This document shows, in pieces, positions 4,092-19,237 of a stretch of 22,906 nucleotides of DNA. The DNA lies in the IMG/VR virus record IMGVR_UViG_3300025418_001337, positions 1-22,906 of that record. One strand, given 5' to 3'. The notes under the pieces are model-generated. The model searched no databases. It saw only the letters and a program-made list of their open reading frames with translations, and was not told the DNA's origin. The position numbers and the translations under genes were made by a program. This stretch comes from a virus. Each line of letters starts with the position of its first letter. Position 1 is the first letter of the stretch.

Positions 4092-4513
4092 TGGGTGCGT
4101 CACTCGACGATATTCTCACCACGCAAAAGAACGGCGTTATCGCTATCAATAACCTTTCCGGTTATTTGCAAACACTTGCCACCGAGGTAACAATCCTTGC
4201 TGGTTTTGCGGCAGGGAACAACCCAACCAACTCATGTCCTACGGTTGTAGCCACAACAACGTCAATTGTGGTTGGCAAAGGCATTATGTTTAGCATTTCC
4301 ATTCCTGCGTCGTCTGGGTCAAACCAAGTGCTTATTTACGACAGCGCGACAACGGGCGGCATTGGTTCGTCTAACCTTATTTATGCTTCACTTCCCGCCA
4401 ACGCCTCTAATTTCGTTCCATACCGCGACACCCGCATTCATTATTCCAATGGCTTAGTCGTTGTTTGCCAGACGGGTATGTCTGCCGTCGTTTCTTACAC
4501 GCCAAATATCTGA
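4091..4513 (+). CDS. Hypothetical phage structural-region protein
   Basis: This 140-aa protein has an N-terminal helix with a conserved-looking start (MGASLDDILTTQKNGVIAIN) and a Ser/Thr/Val-rich beta-strand C-terminus. It has no catalytic motif, signal peptide or membrane helix. Its ATG overlaps the stop of the gp10-like gene in TAATG, with GGGAG just upstream, so the two are translationally coupled. The DILTTQKNGVxAIN type of start is common in small proteins beside tail genes of environmental phages. A minor virion or tail-decoration role is plausible from context only. Confidence 0.7.
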   Translation: MGASLDDILTTQKNGVIAINNLSGYLQTLATEVTILAGFAAGNNPTNSCPTVVATTTSIVVGKGIMFSISIPASSGSNQVLIYDSATTGGIGSSNLIYASLPANASNFVPYRDTRIHYSNGLVVVCQTGMSAVVSYTPNI

Positions 4514-4520
4514 GGTCGTC

Positions 4521-5144
4521 ATGCCATTAGCACACGGTAAATCTCAAAAGACGATCAGTCACAACATCAGCGAGATGGTCCATGCGGGTCATCCGCAAGA
4601 TCAGGCGATCGCGGCTGCGTTAAATACGGCTCGTTATACAAAAGCGGGTGGTGGGCCTATGGATACTCGCAGCATTCCGTCAGTGGAATATGCCAAACCC
4701 GTGCACATGACGCACACGGGCCCTATTCATAGCCCGGTTGCCGGCCGCACGGACCACTTGCCAATGAATGTAAAAGCTGGATCCTATGTTATTCCGGCGG
4801 ACATTATCGGTGCCATGGGCGAAGGCAACACGATGGCCGGATTTAAAATAGCTCGTCGCATGTTCTCATCGGCGCCTTATTTTAATACCCAAAAACAGCC
4901 CTACACCGAAGCCGCGCAACCATATGCCGAGGGAAAACCGTATACAGGCCGCGCAGAAGGTGGCGAAACGTTAGTAGAAATAGTGGCGGCCGGCGGAGAA
5001 TATGTTATTAGCCCAGAAGATGTTACACGTTTAGGCGGCGGTGACATCGATCACGGTCACGACATACTTGATCATTTTGTGACTGGATATCGTAAAAAGA
5101 CCATAGATACGTTAAAAAAATTACCGGGGCCAAAGAGGGATTAA
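4521..5144 (+). CDS. Hypothetical phage protein with S-x-I-S-x-N-I-x-E helical motif
   Basis: This 207-aa protein begins with GKSQKTISHNISEMVHAGHP followed by QDQAIAAALNTAR. That short helical motif is found in many phage structural-operon proteins of unknown function. The remainder holds RTDHLPMNVKAGSYVIPADI (about 75-95) and a second similar block, AEGGETLVEIVAAGGEYVIS. These two blocks look like degenerate copies of one hydrophobic strand motif (LPMNVKAGSYVIPAD against VEIVAAGGEYVISPED). I chose the ATG at 4521, with GAGG before it. An upstream in-frame ATG would run back into the previous gene and lacks support. A structural or assembly role is inferred from position. Confidence 0.72.
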   Translation: MPLAHGKSQKTISHNISEMVHAGHPQDQAIAAALNTARYTKAGGGPMDTRSIPSVEYAKPVHMTHTGPIHSPVAGRTDHLPMNVKAGSYVIPADIIGAMGEGNTMAGFKIARRMFSSAPYFNTQKQPYTEAAQPYAEGKPYTGRAEGGETLVEIVAAGGEYVISPEDVTRLGGGDIDHGHDILDHFVTGYRKKTIDTLKKLPGPKRD

Positions 5145-5650
5145 TGACCGAAGTACGTTTAGGAACACCCGCAGACGAGACGGCGATGTTGGAATTGGCG
5201 CTTCGTGCTTGGGAAGAAAACGGAATTAAAGACGTAAATCCAGAGAAAATGCTCGGCATGATCCGCCCGGCTTTATATCTTTGGCAAGGGTTAGTGGGCA
5301 TTATTGGAAAACCCGGCGAAAAGATTGAAGGCGCGGTCCTTTTAAGACTGTCGCAAATGTGGTATTCTGATAGTTGGATGCTCGAGGAAAAGGCTATTTT
5401 TGTGGATCCCGCATTTAGGAAGAGCGAAGGCGGCCGTCGTTCGGCCACCAAATTACACGCTAGTACTTTATGCGACTTCTCAAAAAAAGTCGCTGACGAG
5501 TTGAATATACCCCTGATTATCGGGGTTCTGTCCAATCATCGGACCGAATCAAAGATCAGGCTTTATGAACGTTCTTTTGGGCCTCCTGCAGGGGCTTTTT
5601 TCTTATACAATGTCCGCACTGGGCATGAAGAGCATGTGACGGAGCATTAA
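5144..5650 (+). CDS. GNAT-like acetyltransferase-fold protein in the tail operon
   Basis: This 168-aa protein has the layout of the GNAT fold: an N-terminal VRLGTPADETAMLELALRA segment, a central pair of beta strands, VDPAFRKSEGGRRSATKL (about 86-103) in the place of the acetyl-CoA loop, and a late NHRTESKIRLYERSFGPPAG segment. The family usually transfers an acetyl group to an amine, but the pyrophosphate-loop motif (Q/R-x-x-G-x-G/A) is imperfect here, so activity is uncertain. The start overlaps the previous stop in TAATG, with AGAGGG upstream. GNAT-like proteins occur in tail operons of several podoviruses, where their job is unknown. Confidence 0.72.
   Translation: MTEVRLGTPADETAMLELALRAWEENGIKDVNPEKMLGMIRPALYLWQGLVGIIGKPGEKIEGAVLLRLSQMWYSDSWMLEEKAIFVDPAFRKSEGGRRSATKLHASTLCDFSKKVADELNIPLIIGVLSNHRTESKIRLYERSFGPPAGAFFLYNVRTGHEEHVTEH
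5580..5602 (+). terminator. Terminator-like hairpin plus T-run inside the GNAT-like gene
   Basis: GCCTC and GGGGC form a five-pair stem (one G-T wobble) around a five-base loop, followed directly by six T's at 5596-5601. The shape is that of a weak intrinsic terminator, but it lies about 50 bases inside the 3' end of a coding sequence whose downstream genes must be expressed. It could attenuate transcription or be chance. Confidence 0.25.
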
Positions 5651-5651
5651 G

Positions 5652-8600
5652 ATGGGTGGCAAGACCGGCACGACGACCCAGAGTGTACAAATCCCACCAG
5701 AAGTTCTGGCTCGGTATAACGCGGTCAATACTACTGCAGAAAAAACTGCAGCTCAACCATTCCAACAATACAGCACCGATCCAAATGCTTTTGTTGCGCC
5801 TCTTAATCAACAACAACAGGCCGGTATTAGCAACATTAATCAATACGCTAATGCGGCACAGCCTGCTTATGGCGCAGCCATGCAAGGCACTGCCAATGCT
5901 TATGGCGGATTGACGCCTGAAGGTTTTCAGCAAGGCGTCTCGGGTTATATGAACCCGTTCGTTAATCAAGCAATGGGTGCCACGGCTGCCCAGATGCAAA
6001 ACATTAACCAGCAAGAGCAACAAAAACTTCTTGGCAACGCTATTAGTCAAGGAGCATTTGGTGGCGATCGCGGGAATATTGCTCAAGCCGCACTTATGAA
6101 CCAGCAAAACCTTGCTATGGGTCAAACGCTTGGCCAAATGGCTTCGCAAGGGTATCAAAACGCTGCTCAAAATTATCTTGCCGGTATTGGTCAGCAAGGT
6201 GCCTTGGCCAACCAAATGGGCGCTTTAGGCACTGGCGCTCAAACCGCTGGACTTACAGGCGCACAGGCACAACTCGGTGCAGGTACGCTTGGCCAACAAA
6301 CGACGCAGGCAGGCAATACGGCTCTTTACAATCAGTTCCTGCAGCAGCAAGCTTATCCATTCCAAGTGGCTCAGTTTCTTGCAAACATCGCAGAAGGCAC
6401 TGGCGCTCTGTCTGGATCGACGACGACCACGCAACAGCCTATGCCATTCTTCTCCGATCGTCGCCTTAAAGAAGATATCAAACGCGTTGGCACCGCCCAT
6501 AACGGCCTTCCAATTTATACATTTAAGTATAAAGGAGACCCTGCCGAGCAAACGCATATTGGTTTCATGGCTGATGAGGTTGAGAAAAAGCACCCAGAGG
6601 CCGTTGGTCTTGCAGGTGGATACAAAACAGTCGATTACGATCGTGCCGCTCGTGCGGAAGGCGGTCTTGTTATGCCGCAGCATGAAGGCATGGGCTTTGG
6701 CCTTGGCGGCCGTGAACACCATTATGACGGTGATATGGTCGGCCAATTAACGGCCGCTCAAAAAGCCATGTATGAAAAATTAATTGAACAGGCAGGTCAG
6801 CAAGCCGGTAGGACAACAACCGGAACCCCGGGCATGTCGTCTTATGTTCCTCAGGCGCAACAACAACAACGTGAATTAAAAGTTGCTGGCGCCCCACCAG
6901 CTAACCCTCAATCCGGCTTATCGCAAGTTATGAACGTAGCGCAAGAAGCGCAAGAAGGTGCAAATTTTTTTGGCACCGATAAATATGGTAATAAAGGTTT
7001 AGGTAAAGCAGCCGCAGATAATGTTTCTGATTTTTTAAAGAAACAACAACAAGCTGCAGATCAAATGGGCCGTACTCCTGAAGGTGGTTTCCAAGCCAGC
7101 GGAGGTCTTGTTGGTTACGCCGATGGCGGCGACGTTCCATATGAAAAAGAAGAAGACAAAAAACTCGATATTCCTGAAGATGATAATAAAAAACAACATG
7201 GTCTTATGACCGCGGCAAACCCAACAGGTGCCCCATCGCAAACTGGTTTAAGCGTTGGTGACGCGCTTGGTGCCGCTAAAATGGCTGCATCTGCCGGCCC
7301 AGCTATTGGTGATTTCTTGGCGTCATTGGCAATGTTTGCAAACCGCGGAGGCGCCGTTGAGCGCGAACATCACGACGGCAGCGAAGGCAACGTAGTAGGC
7401 GGTGGAGACAAACCGGTAGATGATCCATTTGACACGTCAAATGGCGGGTTCACTAAAGCAGTTCCAGATCATTGGAAACCACTGCTTACGGCTATTTCTG
7501 GCCCAGAAAGCGGCAATCAATACGACATCGTTAACGGCGGAAAAACACATATTGATCCTCATCAGCCTCACCCCGGCCTTGTAGGTGAAGGTGGAACAAG
7601 CACAGCGTCCGGTCGTTATCAATTTACCAAAGACACTTGGAACGACACGACCGGCAATCAGCCGATGACGCCATTTAATCAAGATGCTGCCGCAATTAAA
7701 CGCGCTACTTTAGATTATAAACAACGCACCGGCCGTGATCTTGACGCTGACCTTAAAAGCAATGGCGTAACCAAAGACATGATTTCGTCTCTTGCTCCAA
7801 CATGGTCTGGCCTTGGCCCAAAACAAAAATTTGGTGGGTTATCGCTTGGTGATTTGTTCGGTGTTGGTTCAGCTCACGCGCAAGAAGCGCAGCAGCAAGG
7901 TGGCTTGGGTGATTTGATGACAACGCAAAACGTTGTCCCTCTTCTTGCCGGTCTTGGAGCTATGGCATCATCAAATAGCCCGTATCTTGGATCCGCTATT
8001 TTGCAAGGTTTAGGTGCAGGCGCCAAAACCTACGCAGGCATTCAAACGCAACAAGCTGGTCTCAAACAAACCGAAGCAGAAACGGCCGCCAAGAAAGCGG
8101 AAACCGCAAAGAACCGCGTGTTTGCCGTTGGCAATCAATTGTTTATCAACGCTCAATATCCAGACGGCACCGAAGGCAACATTATGTCTGCCTACGATTG
8201 GCTTTACGGTGATCCTAAAACGCGTCCTCGTCTTACTGCGGATCAGGAAAACCAAATTCGCGAATATGTCGCTAAAAATCCATCTGCTGGATTAAAACCA
8301 CCTGCTGCGGGATCTGACGTTATTGCGCCAACGCCGAGCGGTAAAGATACAGCAATCGTTTCTCAACCTCTCGCTCCTCTTGCTGGAACGGACGCATCAA
8401 AGAATGTGGCTGAACCTGCTCAAGTTAAAGGAGAATCTACAACTGCTCCGCAATTGGCAAAGGGTGAAACGAGCGTTACGCTTTCTCCTGATGCTTTGAA
8501 CTTGGCTAAAAATAACCTTCAACAAGCGCGTGTGGCTCAAGATCCTGCAGGGGATGTGTTTAGTGGACAATCTGCTCTTGGCCGCGCTTCCCGTGATCAA

Positions 8601-9251
8601 CGTAGTCTTTTGTTGCCTTTGGCTGGATCATTCTCACGTATTCCTGAAACAGGAGGATCATCAGGCGGTCAACTACAAGCGGTTTTGGCTCCAGTTATGG
8701 ATACAATGAACCATTTTGGCGCTGTTCTTGGTGCGCCTAATTTGATTAAGAATCCAAACATTCTTACAGATCAAAAAGAAGTTGATAAACTTGTTACACA
8801 ATTACAGGCTCAAGCCACATCGGCCGCTGGACAGCATGCCTATGCTGCATTGCAAACTTTATCCGGTGCGTTACCGAGCAATTTAATGGATAAAAACAGT
8901 CAAGCTCGTTTGATGGCTCAACTCATAACAACCAATCAAAAAGAAATTGACCGCGATAATTATTTTAATCAATTCTACAATACTGTTGCATCAACGCCGG
9001 GTGGCGCAGCTTTTGCAAAATACGCTGGTAAAGGTCTCGATCAGCAATTTGAGAATGATTACAACCGCGGTACTTATTCTACTGAGGCGGCAAATCTTGA
9101 ACGCATGTTTAAGACGCCCGTCAAGGAAAGAAACAAACGCAATCTTATGGATGTTTTGACGTCTGGCGAACAATTAACAAACGCTCAAAAAGCAAGCATT
9201 CGCAATAAGTTTGGAAATAAAATTCTTCGTTATTTTAACATTGATGAATAA
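5652..9251 (+). CDS. Large virion protein with S74 autoprotease/chaperone domain and lysozyme-like domain
   Basis: This 1199-aa protein is probably an internal virion or tail-associated protein that opens the cell wall during DNA entry. Residues 1-260 are Gln/Ala-rich and mostly helical. Residues 264-335 form a compact peptidase S74 (intramolecular chaperone) domain: SDRRLKEDI with the Ser268/Lys273 dyad, then THIGFMADEVEKKHPEAV and VDYDRA. Two Gly-rich EGG/DGG segments follow (about 336-500). Residues 605-720 look like a phage muramidase: ISGPESGNQYDIVNGG with Glu619 as likely catalytic acid, then ASGRYQFTKDTWND. A long helical C-terminus follows. S74 normally ends a protein, so this internal position is odd. 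GGAG lies seven bases before the ATG. Confidence 0.82.
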   Translation: MGGKTGTTTQSVQIPPEVLARYNAVNTTAEKTAAQPFQQYSTDPNAFVAPLNQQQQAGISNINQYANAAQPAYGAAMQGTANAYGGLTPEGFQQGVSGYMNPFVNQAMGATAAQMQNINQQEQQKLLGNAISQGAFGGDRGNIAQAALMNQQNLAMGQTLGQMASQGYQNAAQNYLAGIGQQGALANQMGALGTGAQTAGLTGAQAQLGAGTLGQQTTQAGNTALYNQFLQQQAYPFQVAQFLANIAEGTGALSGSTTTTQQPMPFFSDRRLKEDIKRVGTAHNGLPIYTFKYKGDPAEQTHIGFMADEVEKKHPEAVGLAGGYKTVDYDRAARAEGGLVMPQHEGMGFGLGGREHHYDGDMVGQLTAAQKAMYEKLIEQAGQQAGRTTTGTPGMSSYVPQAQQQQRELKVAGAPPANPQSGLSQVMNVAQEAQEGANFFGTDKYGNKGLGKAAADNVSDFLKKQQQAADQMGRTPEGGFQASGGLVGYADGGDVPYEKEEDKKLDIPEDDNKKQHGLMTAANPTGAPSQTGLSVGDALGAAKMAASAGPAIGDFLASLAMFANRGGAVEREHHDGSEGNVVGGGDKPVDDPFDTSNGGFTKAVPDHWKPLLTAISGPESGNQYDIVNGGKTHIDPHQPHPGLVGEGGTSTASGRYQFTKDTWNDTTGNQPMTPFNQDAAAIKRATLDYKQRTGRDLDADLKSNGVTKDMISSLAPTWSGLGPKQKFGGLSLGDLFGVGSAHAQEAQQQGGLGDLMTTQNVVPLLAGLGAMASSNSPYLGSAILQGLGAGAKTYAGIQTQQAGLKQTEAETAAKKAETAKNRVFAVGNQLFINAQYPDGTEGNIMSAYDWLYGDPKTRPRLTADQENQIREYVAKNPSAGLKPPAAGSDVIAPTPSGKDTAIVSQPLAPLAGTDASKNVAEPAQVKGESTTAPQLAKGETSVTLSPDALNLAKNNLQQARVAQDPAGDVFSGQSALGRASRDQRSLLLPLAGSFSRIPETGGSSGGQLQAVLAPVMDTMNHFGAVLGAPNLIKNPNILTDQKEVDKLVTQLQAQATSAAGQHAYAALQTLSGALPSNLMDKNSQARLMAQLITTNQKEIDRDNYFNQFYNTVASTPGGAAFAKYAGKGLDQQFENDYNRGTYSTEAANLERMFKTPVKERNKRNLMDVLTSGEQLTNAQKASIRNKFGNKILRYFNIDE

Positions 9252-9260
9252 AGGTGCGTC

Positions 9261-11576
9261 ATGGATAATACCGATCAAGGTTTTACTTTTGACGAAATTC
9301 CGCAATCCTCTACCCCAGTGGATGATAAAAACGGTTTTACGTTTGATGAAGACAGAAAAACTATTCCTGTTGAACAGCCACTAACTTTAAAAGGTGGCAT
9401 GGGAGCCGCTACAACCGGCGCTGCAAAAGGAATGGCAAATATAGCCGGAACGGTGAAGGACATTGGATCTATCCCTTTGGCTGCCGCTCAACTTTATACA
9501 AAAGCTACGACAACGCCTGAACAATATCAGGATATTAATACGCGTTATCAAAAAATATTTGCGCCTGAAAACCAACCTTCTTATTTGTCGGGGCCATTTG
9601 ATTTTATTCCATCCTCGGAAGACATTAAAAATTTAGTGTCGCCTTATTTGTACCAGTCTAAAAACCCTGCAGAACAACGCGTTGAATCTGGTACTGAACT
9701 TGGCACAACGGTTGCCGGTGGCGGAGAAGGTAGCCTTCTTTCCAAAGCCAGACAATTTATGACAGGATTAGGCGTTGGTTATGGTGCCGAATCTGTACAA
9801 CAACAAAATCCAGAAAATCCCTATATAAAACCAATCATTACGATTGGTGGGTTACTTGCGGGTGAAGGATTGGGCGCTGCTGGAAAAACTATGTTTGGTT
9901 CAGATGAAGCAGCCAAAAAAGCTGTTTCTGAAGCATTGCAAACCGATATTCGCAATGGAACAATTGATCCATCCAAATTTTCTTCTACCGATAATATTTT
10001 GGATGTTGCTCCGCCCGGAAGCAATATTCGGAGACTTGTTGAACGTCAGGCAAACAGGTCATCGGATTATCCAAATGAACTAACTCAATTTAATGTTGAG
10101 GCCGGATCCCCACAAAAACTTGATCAACTTCGTTTGGGTGTAAAAAATTCTCTTGAACAAGTGGCACGTCATCCAATGGATGATGCTTCTAGTTTACAGA
10201 ATTTTGTTGAACAAGCCGATCGTGCGGATGTTGACAAGCTTTATGATCTTGCTCGTGCTAACCCTAAAGCAGCGGCAGTTCCTCGTAGTATATTTGGTGA
10301 AATAGGTGACTTCCAAAACGTGAAGGACGCAGAAGCAATTGTTCAAAAAAATATTGCAAACGATATCAACGCCAATCGTTATGTAATTCCTACAGAAGCG
10401 TCTGCAGGAACTGAAAGCACTTGGGTTGCAACCCCTCAAGGTCTGCAACAAATTTCGGGAAAAGCCGCGCAAGCTGCTCAAGATGGAAATTTATCATATT
10501 GGGATCGCGTGTATCGTCAATTGCGCGATACTGGAGATACTTTATCTCGTAACCCAGAAACAAAAAACGCGGCACAAAATAACTATAATGCTGCAAAACA
10601 AATTCGTGATGCGCTCGATCAGCATATGACAGAGAACGGGTCTTCTCTTTATGCAAATGCCCGTAACAGGGCAAGAGAAGCATTTGAATCCAGTGATGCA
10701 ATAGACACGGGTGAAAAAGCTTATTCAAAATTTAGCCGCAGCCCTCTTGAAAACCAACAAATGGATCAAGATTTTGCATCGCAAACTGACGCCCAAAAAG
10801 CACTTGGGAAGTACGGTTTTATCAATGCTATGAATACCGATTTAAATAAGCCAAACGGTTTATCTTCTATAGCAAATAAAATGTCATCGGATATTAATTT
10901 CCAAAGCCGCGCCAAAATGATTATGGGTGATAATGATTACCATCAAGTTCGCGGACAAGTTTTGGCAGCCGACTTAAAAAATAATGCTAAGCGTTTAAAC
11001 ATACCTGCCAATCCTCCAGAAAACCCTAGTTTTTTACAACGTGCTAAAAGCATAGGAACTGCAGGTGCGATCGGAAGTGCAGTTATTCCTGCCGGCATTG
11101 GCCTTTATAATACTTTGATGGATGCAGCTTTTGCCAATAACTTGTTAAGTGCAGGCGGATTATTGGGGACTGGAGCCGCGGCAATGGCTGTGGCAGGAGG
11201 CAAGGCTTTGTCAGATTCAAATGTAAAAGCAACCGCTAACAAGGTATTAAATTTGGTTGCCAAATCAACGCCTCAAGATCTTGCTACGTTATCAAAAATG
11301 ACCGAAACGGATCCGGTGGCTAAAACATTTTTAATGAAACTTACCGGCGCTTTGCAGTCTTCTCAGCCGCAAGAACAGCCACAGGAAGCGGATGGCGGCC
11401 GTATTGGCCGTGCAACCGGTGGCCGCGCTGGTAAAGATCCAAAAGCTCGTGCAATGCAGTTGATCAACATGGCCGATCGGATTAAAAAGGAACAAGGCAA
11501 CGAAACGAAGCCTTTACTCAACTTGGATGACACTACCGTCGCCAAGGCATTAGCAATAGCCAATAGGGGTATATAA
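9261..11576 (+). CDS. Internal virion / DNA ejection-type protein
   Basis: This 771-aa, mostly helical protein follows the lysozyme-bearing virion protein by nine bases. It starts with two copies of a short motif, GFTFDEIPQ and GFTFDEDRK. Alanine/glycine-rich hydrophobic stretches lie near residues 45-75, 190-210 and 595-652 and could insert into membrane. The centre is rich in charged helices. The C-terminus has ADGGRIGRATGGRAGKDP (about 710-728), then a basic helix. No enzyme motif was seen. Size, composition and position fit the large ejection proteins that podoviruses release into the cell envelope with the genome. The specific family is not recognised. Confidence 0.7.
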   Translation: MDNTDQGFTFDEIPQSSTPVDDKNGFTFDEDRKTIPVEQPLTLKGGMGAATTGAAKGMANIAGTVKDIGSIPLAAAQLYTKATTTPEQYQDINTRYQKIFAPENQPSYLSGPFDFIPSSEDIKNLVSPYLYQSKNPAEQRVESGTELGTTVAGGGEGSLLSKARQFMTGLGVGYGAESVQQQNPENPYIKPIITIGGLLAGEGLGAAGKTMFGSDEAAKKAVSEALQTDIRNGTIDPSKFSSTDNILDVAPPGSNIRRLVERQANRSSDYPNELTQFNVEAGSPQKLDQLRLGVKNSLEQVARHPMDDASSLQNFVEQADRADVDKLYDLARANPKAAAVPRSIFGEIGDFQNVKDAEAIVQKNIANDINANRYVIPTEASAGTESTWVATPQGLQQISGKAAQAAQDGNLSYWDRVYRQLRDTGDTLSRNPETKNAAQNNYNAAKQIRDALDQHMTENGSSLYANARNRAREAFESSDAIDTGEKAYSKFSRSPLENQQMDQDFASQTDAQKALGKYGFINAMNTDLNKPNGLSSIANKMSSDINFQSRAKMIMGDNDYHQVRGQVLAADLKNNAKRLNIPANPPENPSFLQRAKSIGTAGAIGSAVIPAGIGLYNTLMDAAFANNLLSAGGLLGTGAAAMAVAGGKALSDSNVKATANKVLNLVAKSTPQDLATLSKMTETDPVAKTFLMKLTGALQSSQPQEQPQEADGGRIGRATGGRAGKDPKARAMQLINMADRIKKEQGNETKPLLNLDDTTVAKALAIANRGI

Positions 11577-12473: not shown

Positions 12474-12669
12474 TTAAGCCTCTCAAATCGTTGTACATAC
12501 GATGTAATTCCGTAAGGCCTGCCAAAGCATTATCCCTTTGGCGCTCTGCTTCGGCCAACTTTTTACGAAGCTCAATAATATGATCCACCGTTACGGTGTC
12601 CGCATACCGGCTTCCGGGCGGGTATGGTCCAAGCCAACGGACCATTTTCTTGCTTTCATACCCTGTCAT
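12457..12669 (-). CDS. Small coiled-coil hypothetical protein
   Basis: This 70-aa protein has a Pro/Gly-rich start (RWLGPYPPGSRYADTVTVD) followed by a heptad-like helix (IIELRKKLAEAERQRDNALA) and a short basic tail. A dimeric coiled coil is likely. Its ATG overlaps the stop of the primase-helicase gene in ATGA, so it is translationally coupled to it. That could make it a small replication accessory protein, but no family is recognised. Confidence 0.65.
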   Translation of the reverse strand: MTGYESKKMVRWLGPYPPGSRYADTVTVDHIIELRKKLAEAERQRDNALAGLTELHRMYNDLRGLNEQKG

Positions 12670-14930
12670 TTTTTAGCCTTTCTATAACGTTTGACTGTGA
12701 TTTTCCGACGAGGGTGCTGATGCTCGTCAACCAATACCAAGCCGCGCTCGACCAGCTTCTCGAGCACCTTCTCGATGTTGTCTTTCTTGTGGGGCCGTAG
12801 GCGGTTTATAAGTACCCCCAACGTCTCGCCGTCATCGCCGAGCAAGTTCTGTATCCTTGACACGATGGCGTCCTCTGGCGCGTCTTTCTGCCGATCGTTA
12901 CCGATGACAATACGAGCCTTGGTTTCAACGTCATTCTTAACAAGCGCATAGGCCCACCTGACGTGCTCCTGTGTGCGTATGCCCTCTGGCGCCGCCAAGA
13001 TAAACGAAACCTTTGCCACAAGCTCTTTGCCGCGCAAGAACAGCGCTTCAAGGCCTGACCGTTCGGCCTGATCTTCTGCAATGTTGTGCAAAATCTGACT
13101 GGTTTTTTTCAACAATGCCAAGCCGTCGTCCGTCGTAGGGATGGCAACTTTATCCCCATGATTCTCAATCCGGCCAAGATCCATCACATCAAATGACCCG
13201 GCCATGTAAATCTGCTGCAGCGTATTTTTCATAACCTCCGGCATCGGCCGCGGCTGAAAATCCGGCTTTTCTGCCGGCACGGTCTTGGTTTCAATGAACA
13301 ACAACGAACGGCCAATAAAACCGTTTGTGGCGTTCTCGTAATCCACCGAATCATCAAAATTGGAATTGGTGGTAAAACCCATCAAAGACAAAAACGGGTT
13401 CTTGATGCCAACATTAATATGATCCAAGCTTTGCTCTAAACGTACCCGCTTGGCTTCAAAAATCGGATTAGGACCGTCTTCGAGCTGGCGCTCAACTTGG
13501 TTGATTTCCTGCAAAATTGCTTTGCGTATTTCTTTTTTAACGTCTCCCGATACCAACAGCGTTCCGCTGGCTTTGGAGTAGATTGACATAATGACGCCAA
13601 TGATTGCTTCAAGATAAGAAGCGGAACCGCCTTTTTGTGCATTTTTGATCTTCTTCATTAAGAAGCCAATTTCGTCGATCATATAGAAAGACGCTTGATG
13701 CTCGACTAAGTTACGGACAATTTCTTGCTCTGATTTGATTGTGCCATAAGCGGCACGTTGCAGATCAACGGCTTCCATAATCTGGATGCCGCCGCGCAAA
13801 ATACTTTCTTTACCGGTGGCCGACCCCGCGACGCAGAAAGCAATTAAGTTCGACGTCGTATTCCGCAAGGGATCCATATACTTTAGACCAACAAGATTGC
13901 CCATTGAGACAAGCGCTGATCCGACCGCAATCGTCTCCCGCACATACGGGCACTGATCGTGGATCCATGTGGCTACATCGCCAACGAAGCCCGGTGGACG
14001 GCGCAGATCGATGCCGGACAAATCAATATCGTCCTCCTCGACGATCTCGAGCACTTCGTTTGGCACGAACGTTACAGGCCATTCCCAGCCGCCTTTTTGA
14101 GCGTAGTAAACCAACGTTCCAAGCGTTACCGGATTGGCCGATTTACCAAAGCTGTGCCATTTCTTGGCCATGTCTGTTTCGTCGTGCTTTGACGACGTCG
14201 ACGACCAAGCTCTCCACAAATCATATGCTGCACCGCCCGAAGCGTGGTGCAATGACATGCCGATTCGGATCCATACTTCGTAATCTAAGTTGTCATTGTT
14301 GATATACGAAAGCATGTCGCCGAGCTCGGTGGGCGATACGTCAACCGTGCGGCCCTCATACGTGGCGCGGTTTCTTTCTGGCTTGCGTAGAGCGCTGATA
14401 AGCGTTTCCGGAGCGTCCTCGATATCCGAGGGGGATCCAATCAACGTAACATATCTGTTGCCAGTCGCATGTAACGAATCGGGGCCAACGACAAAACCAC
14501 TACTTTTAAAATCAATGCCGGGGTAATCATCGAGGTGCTGGACAAGCGCAAGTTCTTCTTGAAGTTTGAAATACAAGTGCTTGGATCCGTTGCCAGATCC
14601 TGTTTGAACGATCAAACCTGCGCCGGCGACTTCTGGATACTTTATGAGCAAACGCTCATATGATTCGACGCCGCCGTTACGAGCGTCGACGTCAATAACC
14701 AATAGTCCTTTTACCAAAACACCATAGCCAGAACTTAACTGGTCGGTTTCTTCAAACGTTTCTAATTGCTCTTCGGACCAGTAAGGCACATTGGTCCATC
14801 CAGACATAACAGGATGCTTGCCAACAGCTTTGCACTTTAAGTTGCCGCAGCCGCAAGTATTGCTTTTTGTTATTGGATGAAGGCCAAAAATGCGATAACC
14901 GGCCTCCCAAAAATTCCGGTAATTCGACAT
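12666..14930 (-). CDS. Bifunctional primase-polymerase with PriCT-2 and helicase-like ATPase domains
   Basis: This 754-aa protein likely primes and unwinds DNA at the phage origin. Residues 1-180 form a Prim-Pol (AEP) domain: Cys26/Cys28/Cys33 in CGCGNLKC, the metal-binding VIDVDARNGG (Asp80, Asp82), and GSGNGSKHLYFK (His118). Residues 200-285 match PriCT-2 (DYEVWIRIGMSLHHASGGA, then YDLWRAWS). Residues 310-650 hold a DUF3987-like ATPase with Walker A GSATGKES (369-376) and Walker B FYMIDEIG (415-422). A winged-helix-like end (LINRLRPHKKDNIEKVLEKL) completes it. The Prim-Pol/helicase fusion is typical of phage and plasmid replication proteins. The gene starts just after the GIY-YIG stop. Confidence 0.9.
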   Translation of the reverse strand: MSNYRNFWEAGYRIFGLHPITKSNTCGCGNLKCKAVGKHPVMSGWTNVPYWSEEQLETFEETDQLSSGYGVLVKGLLVIDVDARNGGVESYERLLIKYPEVAGAGLIVQTGSGNGSKHLYFKLQEELALVQHLDDYPGIDFKSSGFVVGPDSLHATGNRYVTLIGSPSDIEDAPETLISALRKPERNRATYEGRTVDVSPTELGDMLSYINNDNLDYEVWIRIGMSLHHASGGAAYDLWRAWSSTSSKHDETDMAKKWHSFGKSANPVTLGTLVYYAQKGGWEWPVTFVPNEVLEIVEEDDIDLSGIDLRRPPGFVGDVATWIHDQCPYVRETIAVGSALVSMGNLVGLKYMDPLRNTTSNLIAFCVAGSATGKESILRGGIQIMEAVDLQRAAYGTIKSEQEIVRNLVEHQASFYMIDEIGFLMKKIKNAQKGGSASYLEAIIGVIMSIYSKASGTLLVSGDVKKEIRKAILQEINQVERQLEDGPNPIFEAKRVRLEQSLDHINVGIKNPFLSLMGFTTNSNFDDSVDYENATNGFIGRSLLFIETKTVPAEKPDFQPRPMPEVMKNTLQQIYMAGSFDVMDLGRIENHGDKVAIPTTDDGLALLKKTSQILHNIAEDQAERSGLEALFLRGKELVAKVSFILAAPEGIRTQEHVRWAYALVKNDVETKARIVIGNDRQKDAPEDAIVSRIQNLLGDDGETLGVLINRLRPHKKDNIEKVLEKLVERGLVLVDEHQHPRRKITVKRYRKAKK

Positions 14931-14933
14931 CTT

Positions 14934-15470
14934 TTACCCCTGCCAAGTATCAATTATTTCTGTTACTAAATCTAAAACGCCAACTGACGCTAAATCAATT
15001 TTAGTTGTTTTGCCAAACAAAATAGATCTTAAAAATAAAGATGACTTTGATGGATCTATTTTTCTTTCTAACCCACGAAGAACGTGATCTTTTTTCTTCG
15101 CGCTTGGCCAATTTCCCAAAAAAATTTCCAATTTCTTTTTCGCATATTCCATATCATCTGATATATTTTTTAAATTATCAGGATGGTAATCGTCTTGCAT
15201 TCTGATAAATTCGTTTAAAACCATATCAAGTGGTTGAAACCATTCATATTTTACAAAAAAACCTTTTTCTTTAAGTCTTTTGTGCATTTCTTGTTCACAC
15301 ATCAATGCTGATTTTTTACTATCATAACAAACTTTTGTAACTAACTTTACGGGAAAAGGATTTTGAGCTTCAAGAGACTTTAATCGAGCTTCAATATTAG
15401 AACTAATCCCAACTTTTGCATGATTTTTGCAGCTAATTAAATACAAAAAGTATTTTTGATCATTTTTCAT
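14934..15470 (-). CDS. GIY-YIG-type nuclease, T5orf172/MUG113-like
   Basis: This 178-aa protein carries the reduced GIY-YIG form seen in T5orf172 domains: FLYLISCKNHAKVGISSNIE (Tyr10, Lys19-Val-Gly21), Arg29 in EARLKSL, Glu59/Glu61 and His63 in CEQEMHKRL, and EWF at 76-78. These positions match the nuclease core of about 80 residues. The C-terminal 100 residues are helical and unassigned. The gene is clearly more AT-rich than the primase next to it, which suggests separate acquisition. I chose the internal ATG at 15470, 12 bases inside the longest frame, because it follows GGTGGT and overlaps the regulator by only 11 bases. Free-standing relatives may be homing-type or DNA-processing nucleases. 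Confidence 0.78.
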   Translation of the reverse strand: MKNDQKYFLYLISCKNHAKVGISSNIEARLKSLEAQNPFPVKLVTKVCYDSKKSALMCEQEMHKRLKEKGFFVKYEWFQPLDMVLNEFIRMQDDYHPDNLKNISDDMEYAKKKLEIFLGNWPSAKKKDHVLRGLERKIDPSKSSLFLRSILFGKTTKIDLASVGVLDLVTEIIDTWQG

Positions 15471-15687
15471 TTTCACCACCAAATAAATATAATGAAAGTT
15501 TTTCTACGGTTTCTAACGTAGGATTTACATTCTTCCCAGACGCGACTGCTCGAACAGTGTTTTCATGCAATTTTGTATAAGAAGCTACTTTTGAGAGATT
15601 TCTATCCTTTAAAGCGCTTTGAATACGTTTTAATTGCTCTTCAAACGTAAACCGAATTATTTGGTCTGGTTTGTCAAAAATTTCCAT
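15460..15687 (-). CDS. XRE/Cro-type helix-turn-helix regulator
   Basis: This 75-aa protein is almost entirely one HTH domain: FEEQLKRIQSALKDRNLSKV followed by ASYTKLHENTVRAVASGKNV and NPTLETVEKLSLYL. The recognition helix would be around HENTVRAVASG. The start at 15687 follows AAGGA at seven bases; a longer frame would start inside the promoter region. It is the first gene of the leftward operon and faces the Sak4-like ATPase across about 90 bases with two inverted repeats. It probably binds there and represses itself and the rightward operon. A Cro-like or antirepressor-independent switch is likely, but lysogeny is not shown. Confidence 0.85.
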   Translation of the reverse strand: MEIFDKPDQIIRFTFEEQLKRIQSALKDRNLSKVASYTKLHENTVRAVASGKNVNPTLETVEKLSLYLFGGENEK

Positions 15688-15704
15688 CTTTGTGTCCTTA
15701 ATAA

Positions 15705-15718
15705 CAACAACGGTGTTG
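15705..15718. promoter_or_regulatory. Operator-like inverted repeat 1
   Basis: CAACA and TGTTG flank ACGG in a perfect 5+5 dyad. It overlaps the -35 box of the rightward promoter and the leftward start site. Its right half reads TGTTGA when extended, the same half-site as in repeat 2. It is a likely binding site for the neighbouring HTH protein. Confidence 0.5.
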
Positions 15719-15748
15719 ACATTCACACATCGACCCCTGTACTGTCAA
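15710..15748 (-). promoter_or_regulatory. Predicted leftward early promoter (HTH/GIY-YIG/primase operon)
   Basis: A perfect TTGACA lies on the minus strand at 15748-15743. At 16 or 17 bases spacing the -10 candidates are GTGAAT or TGAATG, which are weak. Transcription would start near 15710, about 20 bases before the HTH start codon. The weak -10 suggests dependence on an activator or release from repression. Confidence 0.45.
15716..15745 (+). promoter_or_regulatory. Predicted rightward early promoter (Sak4/SSB operon)
   Basis: A perfect TTGACA at 15716-15721 is followed, at 18 bases, by TACTGT (15740-15745), a poor -10 match. Transcription would start near 15752, shortly before the ATG at 15775. 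It overlaps the leftward promoter head-on, so both polymerases would cross the same DNA. Confidence 0.45.
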
Positions 15749-15757
15749 CCCTGTTGA
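15745..15757. promoter_or_regulatory. Operator-like inverted repeat 2
   Basis: TCAAC and GTTGA flank CCT in a perfect 5+5 dyad. It overlaps the leftward -35 box and the rightward start site, mirroring repeat 1. It shares the TGTTGA half-site. The pair is therefore placed to control both promoters at once. Confidence 0.5.
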
Positions 15758-15774
15758 AGCAGAGGAGTATGCCA

Positions 15775-16563
15775 ATGGGCATTTTAGATAGTATATCGAA
15801 GCCGGTTGATCGTCCGGTAATAGTAACGATCTGTGGTGATAGCGGTATGGGTAAAACCACCCTTGCCGTGTCTTTTCCAAAACCAATCGTGATTCGCGCA
15901 GAAGATGGCCTCCAAGCCATTCCTTCAGATCAGCGCCCTGACGCGTTCCCATTGTTATCGTCGCCTGACGATCTGTGGGATCAGTTGAAGGGTTTGATCA
16001 ACGAGCCTCACGATTACAATACACTGATCGTCGACAGCGTCACCGCTCTTGAGCGTATGTTCGCACAATACATCGTCGATACAGATCCTAAGAAGCCGCG
16101 GGGCATTCAACAGGCTCTCGGTGGTTACGGTGCAGGCCGTGACGCCGTGTCTGGCATGCATCAGCGGTTGCGTAAGGCGGCCGGCATTTTGGCTGAAAAG
16201 CGTGGCATGCACACCGTGTTTATTGCACACGCCGACACTCAGAAGATCGAACCGCCGGACGATGACGCTTATATGCGTTACACCTTACGTCTGCACGAAA
16301 AGAGCCTCCCAGCCTACGTTGATGACGTAGACGTTGTGGGTTTCCTTAAGCTGGAAACATTCACAACAGGCGATGAAAATAAGAAGAAAGCTATCTCCGA
16401 TGGTACTCGCATTCTTATTACACACGCCACAGCGGCTAACGTTTCCAAAAACCGTTATGGGATCTCAGAGCCCATTATTGTTAAGGCCGGCGTTAATCCG
16501 TTTGCTGATTTTATTCCCGCTCTTAAATCAACCGCGCAGACCAAGAAGGAGAAAGCGCAATGA
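15775..16563 (+). CDS. Sak4-like RecA-fold AAA ATPase
   Basis: This 262-aa protein has the AAA_24/Sak4 pattern: VIVTICGDSGMGKTTLAVSF with Walker A at 21-28 (Lys27), FPKPIVIRAEDGLQ, and Walker B TLIVDSVTALE (Asp87). Sak4 proteins are short RecA/Rad51-like phage recombinases that promote strand annealing and work with a cognate SSB. The next gene is SSB-like and coupled by an ATGA overlap, which supports the assignment. I chose the ATG at 15775 because AGGAG lies seven bases before it; an ATG six bases earlier would be only one base from that site. It is the first gene of the rightward early operon. Confidence 0.85.
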   Translation: MGILDSISKPVDRPVIVTICGDSGMGKTTLAVSFPKPIVIRAEDGLQAIPSDQRPDAFPLLSSPDDLWDQLKGLINEPHDYNTLIVDSVTALERMFAQYIVDTDPKKPRGIQQALGGYGAGRDAVSGMHQRLRKAAGILAEKRGMHTVFIAHADTQKIEPPDDDAYMRYTLRLHEKSLPAYVDDVDVVGFLKLETFTTGDENKKKAISDGTRILITHATAANVSKNRYGISEPIIVKAGVNPFADFIPALKSTAQTKKEKAQ

Positions 16564-17102
16564 GTTTCTGGAACCTTTCTGACGGCGACGATATTGCCAA
16601 AACCGGCTCAAAGTATGAGATCGAAGGCGGCTCAATGGAGCCTATCCCTAACGATACAAACTGCGTAGCCAATATTGAAAACGCTTCGATCGAAAGCAAT
16701 CGTGACGGGCTTCAGTATATTAATATCCGTTGGTCCGTATTGGCGCCATCGGAATATAAAAACCGCAAAGTGTTCCAAAAGCTTTGGTGCCTCGATGACG
16801 ATCCCCGCGCAAAGGATGCGGCCGTCAAAAAGGACAAGGCCAAGAAGATGCTTTTTGTTATGGATAGCAATGCCGGTGGCAAGATGTTCTCTAGCGGCAA
16901 GCCTATGACTGACAATCTCCTTGCTACACTTCATGGCAAGCAGATGCAGATTAAGGTCATGACGTATGAGATCGAGGGAGACAACGGCAAGATTACGGGT
17001 AATTGGATCTCGTCTATTTCCCCTAAAGCTGGCGCCGCAGCACCCGCACCAAAGGCTAAGGCGCCTGTTCAAGTCCATGATGACGAGGATGTGCCGTTCT
17101 AA
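16560..17102 (+). CDS. SSB-like single-stranded-DNA-binding protein
   Basis: This 180-aa protein is predicted to bind single-stranded DNA and to partner the Sak4-like ATPase. Residues 1-150 are beta-rich with an OB-fold-like pattern (GGSMEPIPNDTNCVANIENA, then DGLQYINIRWSV). An Ala/Pro/Lys linker (about 153-172) leads to an acidic tip ending DDEDVPF. That ending closely resembles the DDDIPF tip by which bacterial SSB recruits partner proteins. The family may be DUF669-like. Its start overlaps the ATPase stop in ATGA. The Sak4/SSB pairing is known from other phages. Confidence 0.78.
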   Translation: MSFWNLSDGDDIAKTGSKYEIEGGSMEPIPNDTNCVANIENASIESNRDGLQYINIRWSVLAPSEYKNRKVFQKLWCLDDDPRAKDAAVKKDKAKKMLFVMDSNAGGKMFSSGKPMTDNLLATLHGKQMQIKVMTYEIEGDNGKITGNWISSISPKAGAAAPAPKAKAPVQVHDDEDVPF

Positions 17103-17118
17103 GGGGCGAACGGTCGAG

Positions 17119-17140
17119 GGGGCGGCCTACGGGCCGTCCC
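17119..17140 (+). other. RNA hairpin with UACG tetraloop
   Basis: A nine-pair GC-rich stem (one G-T wobble) encloses TACG closed by C-G, which is the UNCG class of very stable tetraloops. It lies in the 56-base gap between the SSB-like gene and the next ribosome-binding site. No T-run follows, so it is more likely an mRNA-stability or processing element, or a block to read-through, than a classical terminator. Confidence 0.6.
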
Positions 17141-17158
17141 TATACAAAGGAGGGTTTA

Positions 17159-17398
17159 ATGCCACAATGGTATTTTAAAAGTAAACTTGAACAACAAGAA
17201 GAAGAGCGAAAAAAACTGCAGCAAATTAAATTTGATAAAATGTATTATGAAAATTTGCGGCGGATGAGTGAAGCTACGATGACTCAAAAAGGTAAAGAAA
17301 AAATAGGGGTAAAAACCCGAGCAAGAAATACAAAGGTATCGTTACCAAAATTTAGTTGGGACAACAAAGGAGATAAAAATGGCATCGATGTCGACTGA
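17159..17398 (+). CDS. Small basic hypothetical protein
   Basis: This 79-aa protein is rich in Lys, Arg and Gln. Residues 8-40 form a charged helix (SKLEQQEEERKKLQQIKFDK), followed by a basic segment (KEKIGVKTRARNTK). The start has a strong AAAGGAGG seven bases upstream, one of the best ribosome-binding sites in the window. Its end overlaps the next gene by 20 bases. The gene is AT-rich compared with the SSB-like and exonuclease genes. It may bind nucleic acid; no family is recognised. Confidence 0.65.
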   Translation: MPQWYFKSKLEQQEEERKKLQQIKFDKMYYENLRRMSEATMTQKGKEKIGVKTRARNTKVSLPKFSWDNKGDKNGIDVD

Positions 17399-17618
17399 GT
17401 ATGAACAGGTTTTGGTTCTTGGCGAGATTAAAGAACAATTGGAAAGATTAAATAGTTCCTTGCAGTCAATTGAATTTTCAATTGATCATTCGGGTACAAG
17501 TTTAAGAAATCAATTTGCAATCGCTGCTTTAGCTTTGGTTAAAGACGCATGGAGTAATGATGAACTTGCCATAAAAGCATTTGAAATTGCAGACGCGATG
17601 ATGGAACGTATTAAATAA
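17379..17618 (+). CDS. Small helical hypothetical protein
   Basis: This 79-aa protein has a coiled-coil-like first half (EIKEQLERLNSSLQSIEFSI) and a hydrophobic helical second half (QFAIAALALVKDAWSNDELA). The start follows AAAGGAG. Its stop overlaps the exonuclease start in TAATG, so expression is coupled to the exonuclease. No family is recognised. Confidence 0.66.
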   Translation: MASMSTEYEQVLVLGEIKEQLERLNSSLQSIEFSIDHSGTSLRNQFAIAALALVKDAWSNDELAIKAFEIADAMMERIK

Positions 17619-18241
17619 TGGAACAACGCAGTGAAGAATGGTTTAAAGCCCGTCAGGGCCGGGTTACAGGGTCCGCAGTGGGTGCCATTCTCGGGGTGTC
17701 TCCATTTACCAAACCGGCCGATGTCATGCGCCGCATGGTGCGTGACTGGCACGGTGCGCCGTCTGAGTTTAAAGGCAACATAGCCACCGACTGGGGCACC
17801 ACTAATGAGGCCGGCGCCGTTGCACAATTTGAAATGAGAACAGGCCATATCGTCGAGCCATGCGGGTTTTATACCCATGAAGAATGGCTCGGCGCTTCGC
17901 CCGACGGTTTGGTCGGGACATCTGGTCTGCTGGAAGTCAAATGCCCTTTTGGTCTACGCGATAAAACTGAACCTGTTTTTAAAACAGCTAAAATGCAGAT
18001 CCATTACTATAGCCAGATGCAAGTTCAGCTATACGTTACCGGCCGCAAGATCTGCTACTTTTACCAGTGGGCGCCCAAAGGCGACGATCTTGAAGTGGTG
18101 GAATACGACCAGCGCTACATGGACACGGCACTAAAAGCGCTTCGTATGTTTTATGATCAGTATCTCAAAGAACGCGAATTTCCGTATGCGGAGAAATATT
18201 TAGATGGGCAAACGCAGCAACTTCAAACGTCACAAGCTTGA
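17618..18241 (+). CDS. YqaJ-type viral recombinase exonuclease (lambda-exonuclease fold)
   Basis: This 207-aa protein likely degrades one strand of double-stranded DNA to provide ends for the Sak4-like annealing system. The N-terminus (RSEEWFKARQGRVTGSAVGA) is the YqaJ signature. The PD-(D/E)XK site is visible as Glu64 (TTNEAG), Asp96 in ASPDGLVG, and Glu106/Lys108 in LLEVKCP. A downstream QMQVQLYVTG helix is also typical. Length is normal for the family. The 3' end is overlapped by 38 bases by the methyltransferase start. Confidence 0.92.
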   Translation: MEQRSEEWFKARQGRVTGSAVGAILGVSPFTKPADVMRRMVRDWHGAPSEFKGNIATDWGTTNEAGAVAQFEMRTGHIVEPCGFYTHEEWLGASPDGLVGTSGLLEVKCPFGLRDKTEPVFKTAKMQIHYYSQMQVQLYVTGRKICYFYQWAPKGDDLEVVEYDQRYMDTALKALRMFYDQYLKEREFPYAEKYLDGQTQQLQTSQA

Positions 18242-18719
18242 TTTATATGCGACGCCAGAAGAAGCCGTTCTGCCTCTCCTGCCGCATTTAGACAAGATAA
18301 CGTACTACGCCGAACCATGTGCCGGGGACGGCGCTTTGATTAAGATCCTACAAAAGCATGGCCATAAATGCGTGGCGGCTTATGACGTTGAACCTAGACA
18401 CAAGATTGTGAAACCACTCGATGCGACATTTCTTAAAAAAGAAGACCTCAATCGCGCTGACGTCATCATTACGAATCCGCCTTGGGGACGGGAAGTGCTT
18501 CATCAGATCATCGAGCGGTCTTTTTTTCTGGCGCCGTCGTGGTTTCTATTTGACGCCGATTGGATGCATACGAAACAAGCTGCATCATACCTTCCGCGGT
18601 GCCAGAAAATTGTTTCTATAGGCCGGGTAAAATGGTTTGGTAATATCGCGGGTAAAGATAATTGTTGTTGGTATTTGTTCAATGAATCCCCAACAAAAAC
18701 AATTTTTGTAGGGCAATGA
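18204..18719 (+). CDS. Class I SAM-dependent DNA methyltransferase (NPPW type)
   Basis: This 171-aa protein shows the SAM-binding motif EPCAGDGAL (about 37-45), an acidic residue ending the next strand (YDVEPR), and the catalytic ITNPPWG (about 89-95). The order, SAM site then NPPW, fits N6-adenine methyltransferases. It is short and has no separate target-recognition domain, like other small phage methyltransferases. No restriction enzyme partner is evident, so self-protection or regulation is likely. It overlaps the exonuclease gene by 38 bases, with GGAG ten bases before the ATG. Confidence 0.85.
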   Translation: MGKRSNFKRHKLDLYATPEEAVLPLLPHLDKITYYAEPCAGDGALIKILQKHGHKCVAAYDVEPRHKIVKPLDATFLKKEDLNRADVIITNPPWGREVLHQIIERSFFLAPSWFLFDADWMHTKQAASYLPRCQKIVSIGRVKWFGNIAGKDNCCWYLFNESPTKTIFVGQ

Positions 18720-19237
18720 TGATTGTAAGATTAACCAAATCTGAGCTGATGGTTGCCGGGCTGGTTGGCAATATGCGAAGCATCTCGTCTTTGGGGCGGT
18801 TGGTGCAAAACAAGCACTCGCCGACCGATTCCCAATGGCAGATCGACGTTGACGGTGCAGCGGCCGAAATGGCTTTTGCCAAGTGGATGAACGTTTATTA
18901 CGAGCCAACCCTTAACACGTTCAAAGATCCCGATGTAGGACGCGTTCAAATCCGATCTACCAAACACGAGCACGGCAAGCTTATTGTTCGCGATCGGGAC
19001 GTTAAAAATGAAATTATTGTTCTGGTCATTAATGCCATGCCGGAATATAGAATGGCAGGCTGGATCTACATCGACGATGCCAAGCAAGATAAATATATTT
19101 ACGACCCAAATAGCAAGAATGCCCCCGCGTGGATGGTTCCACAATCAGATTTAAATAAAATGGAAGATCTTGATGTTACGACCCTATCAGCAAAAAGCAC
19201 ACGACAAGATAATCCAGTGGATCAGCAAGACGACTGA
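18716..19237 (+). CDS. Conserved phage protein of unknown function, possibly nuclease-like
   Basis: This 173-aa protein belongs to a type I recognise from many phages by pattern, without a known function: DVDGAAAEMAFAKWMNVYYE, then NTFKDPDVGRVQIRSTKHEH, GKLIVRDRD and MAGWIYIDDAK. The spacing of Glu51, Asp73 and Gln78-x-Arg80 resembles a PD-(D/E)XK nuclease core, with Arg in place of Lys. This is my inference. The start forms an ATGA overlap with the methyltransferase. The 3' end is overlapped by 65 bases by the helicase gene. Confidence 0.72.
   Translation: MMIVRLTKSELMVAGLVGNMRSISSLGRLVQNKHSPTDSQWQIDVDGAAAEMAFAKWMNVYYEPTLNTFKDPDVGRVQIRSTKHEHGKLIVRDRDVKNEIIVLVINAMPEYRMAGWIYIDDAKQDKYIYDPNSKNAPAWMVPQSDLNKMEDLDVTTLSAKSTRQDNPVDQQDD

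Follow-up and report, generated by a model that had tools for sequence, protein, structure and literature searches.

The window analysed here is the whole 22,906-nt stretch (22.9 kb) of the IMG/VR virus record IMGVR_UViG_3300025418_001337. Its ORF at positions 5652-9251, which has a GGAG ribosome-binding site 7 nt upstream of the ATG, contains a Peptidase_S74 (S74/ICA) domain and a candidate lysin in one chain. A scan of the whole ORF revealed no other internal start with a ribosome-binding site, and an identical protein is encoded in another IMG/VR contig, L005. The features of the locus are as follows.

5652..9251, plus strand: predicted fused ejection-type virion protein, 1199 aa
5652..6452, plus strand: residues 1-267, Gln/Ala-rich helical N-terminal part resembling a P22-gp7-type first ejection protein (PHROG matches, AF2 model)
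6450..6455, plus strand: predicted scissile bond Phe267/Ser268, placed by analogy with endoNF, T5 LTF and MYRF
6453..6647, plus strand: residues 268-332, mini S74/ICA domain (PF13884), with Ser268 (TCC) at 6453-6455 and Lys273 (AAA) at 6468-6470
6648..7433, plus strand: residues 333-594, Gly-rich linker region, the place of the second S74 in two-S74 relatives
7434..7823, plus strand: residues 595-724, lambda-lysozyme-like (GH104-like) domain, with candidate catalytic Glu619 at 7506-7508
7872..9248, plus strand: residues 741-1199, second-ejection-protein-like helical part, opening with the conserved motif LAGLGxMASSxSPYLGxAILQGLG
9261..11576, plus strand: next gene, third-ejection-protein-like, 771 aa, with profile matches in ppBeUSDA76-2 and Mae-JY35

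An independent GH108 endolysin gene (394-903) stands where the virion gene cluster starts, next to a small ORF that is a possible holin. Directly 5' of the S74 gene lies a small ORF (5144-5650), the window copy of which has no Pfam match; the gene preceding S74 is annotated as an acetyl- or acyltransferase in MW202675, RHph_N2, RHph_I3_18 and Ochrobactrum phage OH. Replication genes occupy positions 12666-20948 and encode a Prim-Pol/PriCT_2 primase-polymerase (minus strand), an AAA_24 ATPase, a YqaJ recombinase and a ResIII/DEAD helicase. Motifs resembling xGGxxGYAxGG recur in the structural proteins at 5652-9251, 9261-11576 and 4461-5144, and in the S74 family the A/SxGG motif is about 1.8 times commoner than in shuffled versions of its sequences.

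The Pfam profile PF13884 (Peptidase_S74) matched residues 268-318 with an E-value of 4.6e-11 and 43.3 bits, against a cut-off of 22. SDRRLK (Ser268 and Lys273), HIGFMADEVE and VDYDRA are all present at the positions given in the earlier note, which had placed a compact S74 domain at residues 264-335; the domain and its dyad are intact, and only the C-terminal border has to be moved, the family-conserved end lying at about residue 332. The domain is followed by 867 residues in the same ORF, close to the 860 or so estimated earlier, and it thus differs from the canonical tail-fibre S74, which is C-terminal. A profile of the S74 family matched solved ICA domains of the phage S16 fibre, MyRF and the GA-1 appendage (including 6F45 and 3GUD). 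The AF2 model of the S74 core reached a pLDDT of about 89, and VIA-align placed two ICA domains at the top for this part, that of MyRF, 7DC3 (69 aligned with rmsd 5.6, Z 3.9), and 3GUD (65 aligned with rmsd 5.3, Z 3.6); both Z values are modest, with unrelated rows at 2.4. Foldseek E-values taken by themselves were not significant, and the PDB yielded nothing significant for either model; a search of solved structures with the single 1199-aa protein returned no match, and one of NCBIfam nothing useful. The fold predicted for the domain is S74-like, in keeping with the original assignment.

The SDxxxK dyad is intact in all 133 distinct S74 domains, second copies included. In 132 of them it falls inside the aligned stretch; L136, considered as a possible dyad-less domain, was rejected as such because SDPRLK sits just upstream of its aligned part. 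Among the first 83 domains, Ser, Asp and Lys were each found 83 times, positions between them vary, and the Ser codon uses all four TCN forms. Conservation of Ser268 and Lys273 among homologues, which had been suggested as a check, therefore holds without exception. The invariant dyad argues for retained catalysis, although the two residues could instead be structural.

A C-terminal trimeric coiled-coil helix is absent from the window S74 in both sequence and model: the domain ends at VDYDRA and gives way to the Gly-rich linker, with only a stub helix modelled after the core (residues 329-334). Throughout the family, S74 ends at VDY plus a few residues in unfused forms or enters a Gly-rich linker when fused. 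The region upstream of S74 was modelled as helices with low confidence, and no beta-helix was predicted. In characterized systems, the T5 LTF S74 ends in a coiled coil (PMC4690869), and cleavage of MYRF requires its C-terminal coiled coil, which drives trimerisation (PMC8326128); in endoNF, T5 LTF and MYRF the cut falls before the dyad serine (PMC4690869, PMC8326128). As a guess, trimerisation could here come from the helical N-terminal part. Phage ppBeUSDA76-2 encodes, in addition, a separate tail-fibre protein with S74 and an apparent long helical tail (judged by eye), and thus seems to possess both S74 types, one with a helical tail and one coil-less.

The N-terminal 267-aa piece, described in the earlier note as Gln-rich, indeed contains 17.6% Gln and was modelled as helical, with low confidence. 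It matched phrog_6121 'virion structural protein' (E 6.6e-24), the match running on through S74, and phrog_4287 'DNA ejection protein' (E 1.3e-14), again including S74; in both families S74 aligns at the C-terminal end of the family itself. Furthermore, in 14 isolate or named phages of Pseudomonas, Rhizobium, Bradyrhizobium, Sinorhizobium, Vibrio, Pseudoalteromonas, Microcystis and others, the homologous S74 protein stops 0-17 residues after S74. Several of these unfused relatives, and only unfused ones, matched phrog_598 'DNA ejection', a family of gp7 length. Judging from such family matches, the unfused S74 protein is a predicted P22-gp7-type DNA-ejection protein. The next gene abuts or overlaps the S74 gene in nearly all 14 phages (AH02 has a gap of 46 bases); in many of them the annotation of the gene 3' of S74 names an internal virion protein, DNA injection, a peptidoglycan hydrolase or a cell wall hydrolase, and several of these next genes carry lysin domains (Phage_lysozyme2, Hydrolase_2 or SLT). 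The next gene after S74 in Vibrio phage 199E37-1 is injection-translocase-like (28.4 bits with PF16928, slightly short of the 29.7 cut-off).

Gene order links the two arrangements. The family profile of the gene at 9261-11576 matched a gene of ppBeUSDA76-2 that stands two places after the S74 gene (E 2e-20) and a gene of Microcystis phage Mae-JY35 that stands three places after it (E 1.7e-7). The window thus has the long ORF followed by the third-type gene, whereas unfused phages have the S74 gene, a second gene and then the same third-type gene, so that the C-terminal 860 residues of the window protein hold the place of the missing middle gene. In BFVD, the model of residues 580-1199 matched free-standing phage proteins of 450-550 aa (E 4.7e-5 and 8.4e-5, prob 1.00); another match was a public protein of 1329 aa that bears the name 'Intramolecular chaperone auto-processing domain containing protein'. 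Sequence matches of the C-terminal part are weak: its profile matched the gene adjoining S74 in PAE2 (E 1e-4, prob 58) and gave no clear match to the next genes of most unfused phages beyond PAE2, a HMMER rerun against these genes yielded a marginal match only, and Foldseek returned only generic bundles for the helical C-terminal part. The case for fusion consequently rests mainly on gene order, the BFVD matches and the S74 at the very end of the unfused relatives. For the window protein, the best reading is that two adjacent genes for ejection proteins fused and left S74 at the old boundary, a history that we infer with considerable confidence.

Between S74 and the C-terminal part lies the lysin. 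The muramidase-like site that the earlier note saw around Glu619 is real, but could be detected only with a family profile. Pfam found no lysozyme domain in the single window sequence at E<=1, whereas a seven-sequence profile of residues 580-735 aligned with six relatives matched lambda lysozyme (1AM7 and 3D3D, the top two of three matches) with an E-value of 0.005 over 61 positions, a modest match. Glu619 is invariant in all seven aligned sequences, the HMMER alignment to 1AM7 beginning after this Glu. The AF2 model of the lysin part has a pLDDT below 50 over much of its length, and the region gave a weak tblastn match to internal protein D of Bordetella phage BB8 (E 0.02). In the same slot of 76 relatives, Pfam identified SLT (19), Phage_lysozyme2 (6), GH108 (3), Phage_lysozyme (2) and Hydrolase_2 (2) domains, and GH104-like domains occupy it in the window protein and relatives. 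The slot thus keeps its position while lysins of at least five families replace one another in it, a pattern suggestive of selection in favour of a wall hydrolase at this place, as would be expected for a virion lysin used at entry.

The fused architecture is widespread, being shared by a large group of uncultured bacterial viruses from freshwater, and most of the fused relatives come from IMG/VR. In each of the 55 distinct homologues whose 3' end is known, the last S74 is followed by 596-1565 residues. Relatives had been sought with an S74 motif, and the search was repeated, as a check for bias, with a far C-terminal motif only; the C-terminal alignments were too diverse for scanning the collection until narrowed. 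In this second search, 63 of the 67 ORFs with their own start contained S74, and the remaining four comprised three long ORFs without S74 and one split locus, L183. Of the 87 distinct ORFs from both searches combined, 57 carry a single S74, 26 carry two and 4 (split L183 among them) carry none. A search of the genome contigs identified one locus. On one 90.6-kb contig (IMGVR_UViG_3300010965_000005) the same S74 ORF occurs near both ends in opposite orientation (L055 and L056), possibly an assembly duplication.

In the two-S74 ORFs (L034, L036, L040, L041, L049, L054, L055, L058, L060, L077, L083, L084, L090, L114, L123, L124, L131, L132 and others), the second S74 lies about 155-480, mostly 155-300, residues further on in the linker region, in many cases behind a hydrophobic stretch rich in Ala, Gly and Ile. 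A tree built from the N-terminal part requires at least 9 changes in the second copy and at least 2 between presence and absence of S74 (L183 counted as absent); the second S74 has been repeatedly gained or lost. In L130 (3202-7236), L143 (3475-7356) and L152 (3109-6339, its 3' end cut off by the contig), S74 is cleanly absent, the long ORF is kept and the chain passes from an LFS/FFS junction directly to the Gly-rich linker. Loss thus concerns the whole unit, and a decayed dyad was never seen. Given these few full-length relatives without S74, release of the enzyme by S74 is not strictly required by the fused architecture. In L183 (2108-5704 and 5701-7401), the gp7-like part, S74 and lysin share one ORF, and the C-terminal ejection part is encoded by a separate overlapping ORF.

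The earlier note had proposed that S74 serves as a processing site freeing the enzyme. The intact dyad inside a lysin-bearing protein fits this proposal, and a cut of the 126-kDa chain would yield pieces with predicted masses of 27.6 kDa (residues 1-267) and 98.4 kDa. Fusion of adjacent genes, the missing coil, two-S74 relatives and full-length relatives without S74 were not part of that interpretation. Taking these into account, S74 is predicted to cut between Phe267 and Ser268 and thereby to free a lysin-bearing ejection protein, which we regard as reasonably probable. An ancestral gp7-type protein already ending in a short S74 would have fused with the next, lysin-bearing ejection protein. 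The chain would fold and oligomerise, after which the Ser268-Lys273 dyad would cut before Ser268; residues 1-267 (gp7-like) and residues 268-1199 (lysin plus tunnel) would from then on be two distinct virion proteins. Each would be packaged and, at infection, ejected, and the GH104-like domain would there open the peptidoglycan. For the broader proposition that coil-less S74 modules, one or two per chain, split ejection fusions into a pore-type protein, a linker piece and a lysin-tunnel protein, as a viral parallel of MYRF, we see the chances as evenly balanced.

Cutting is the best single account in view of the dyad record, the location of S74 at the presumed ancestral gene boundary and the internal S74 of MYRF, which self-cleaves and separates two halves of one chain with release of the N-terminal half (PMC3742443, PMC8326128). 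A non-cutting role stays alive owing to the missing coil and the relatives without S74. S74 would then be a folding or oligomerisation module with the dyad kept for structural reasons, and the protein would work as one long chain, much as T7 gp16 (1318 aa, with an N-terminal peptidoglycan hydrolase) carries a lysin within one long ejection protein (PMC8954989). However, no residue is more invariant than Ser and Lys over the 133 domains, including those of the 26 two-copy ORFs, and S74 disappears as a unit rather than through decay of the dyad; we consider this reading rather unlikely. Even if S74 cuts, it might serve mainly to control the folding quality of the N-terminal gp7-like oligomer, as it does in tail spikes, with separation of the lysin as a by-product. 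The unfused gp7-like protein has this mini S74 at its end, where nothing but self-release is possible, but the second S74 domains further along the chain would be left unexplained, and we hold this to be improbable. For the notion that an error of assembly or sequencing produced the long ORF, or that its parts are made from internal starts, we found no supporting point: the fusion recurs in dozens of distinct contigs as well as in MW202675, a circular 61-kb record, and the scan for internal starts described above speaks against the latter. We give this notion hardly any credibility.

Like MYRF, the window protein has an S74 core with a Ser-Lys dyad between two functional halves; unlike it, MYRF is a eukaryotic membrane transcription factor with a C-terminal coiled coil and a beta-helical stalk, neither of which was seen here. 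The S74 core and SDxxxK dyad are shared with the chaperones of endosialidase K1F, T5 LTF and the GA-1 appendage, which however are C-terminal on beta-rich tail spikes or fibres and are discarded (that of T5 LTF with a trimer coil), whereas the window S74 is internal, coil-less and part of a predicted-helical ejection-type protein. Gene position and family links, including the phrog_598 matches, recall P22 gp7/gp20/gp16, but P22 has three separate ejection proteins and its gp7 is trimmed by a host protease (PMC4992974). T7 gp16, or internal virion protein D, is likewise a virion protein with a peptidoglycan hydrolase for entry (PMC8954989), although the T7 lysin forms the N terminus of the third ejection protein and no S74 has been reported there. 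Our search of the open-access literature turned up no account of an ejection protein with S74 or of S74 domains in tandem. If the cut occurs, S74 would act in phages as an internal polyprotease that does without the coiled coil considered necessary, which would explain how ejection proteins can be fused yet act separately and would bring a domain known from tail spikes and myelin biology into the genome-delivery machinery. Natural versions with zero, one and two copies of S74 are available for comparison.
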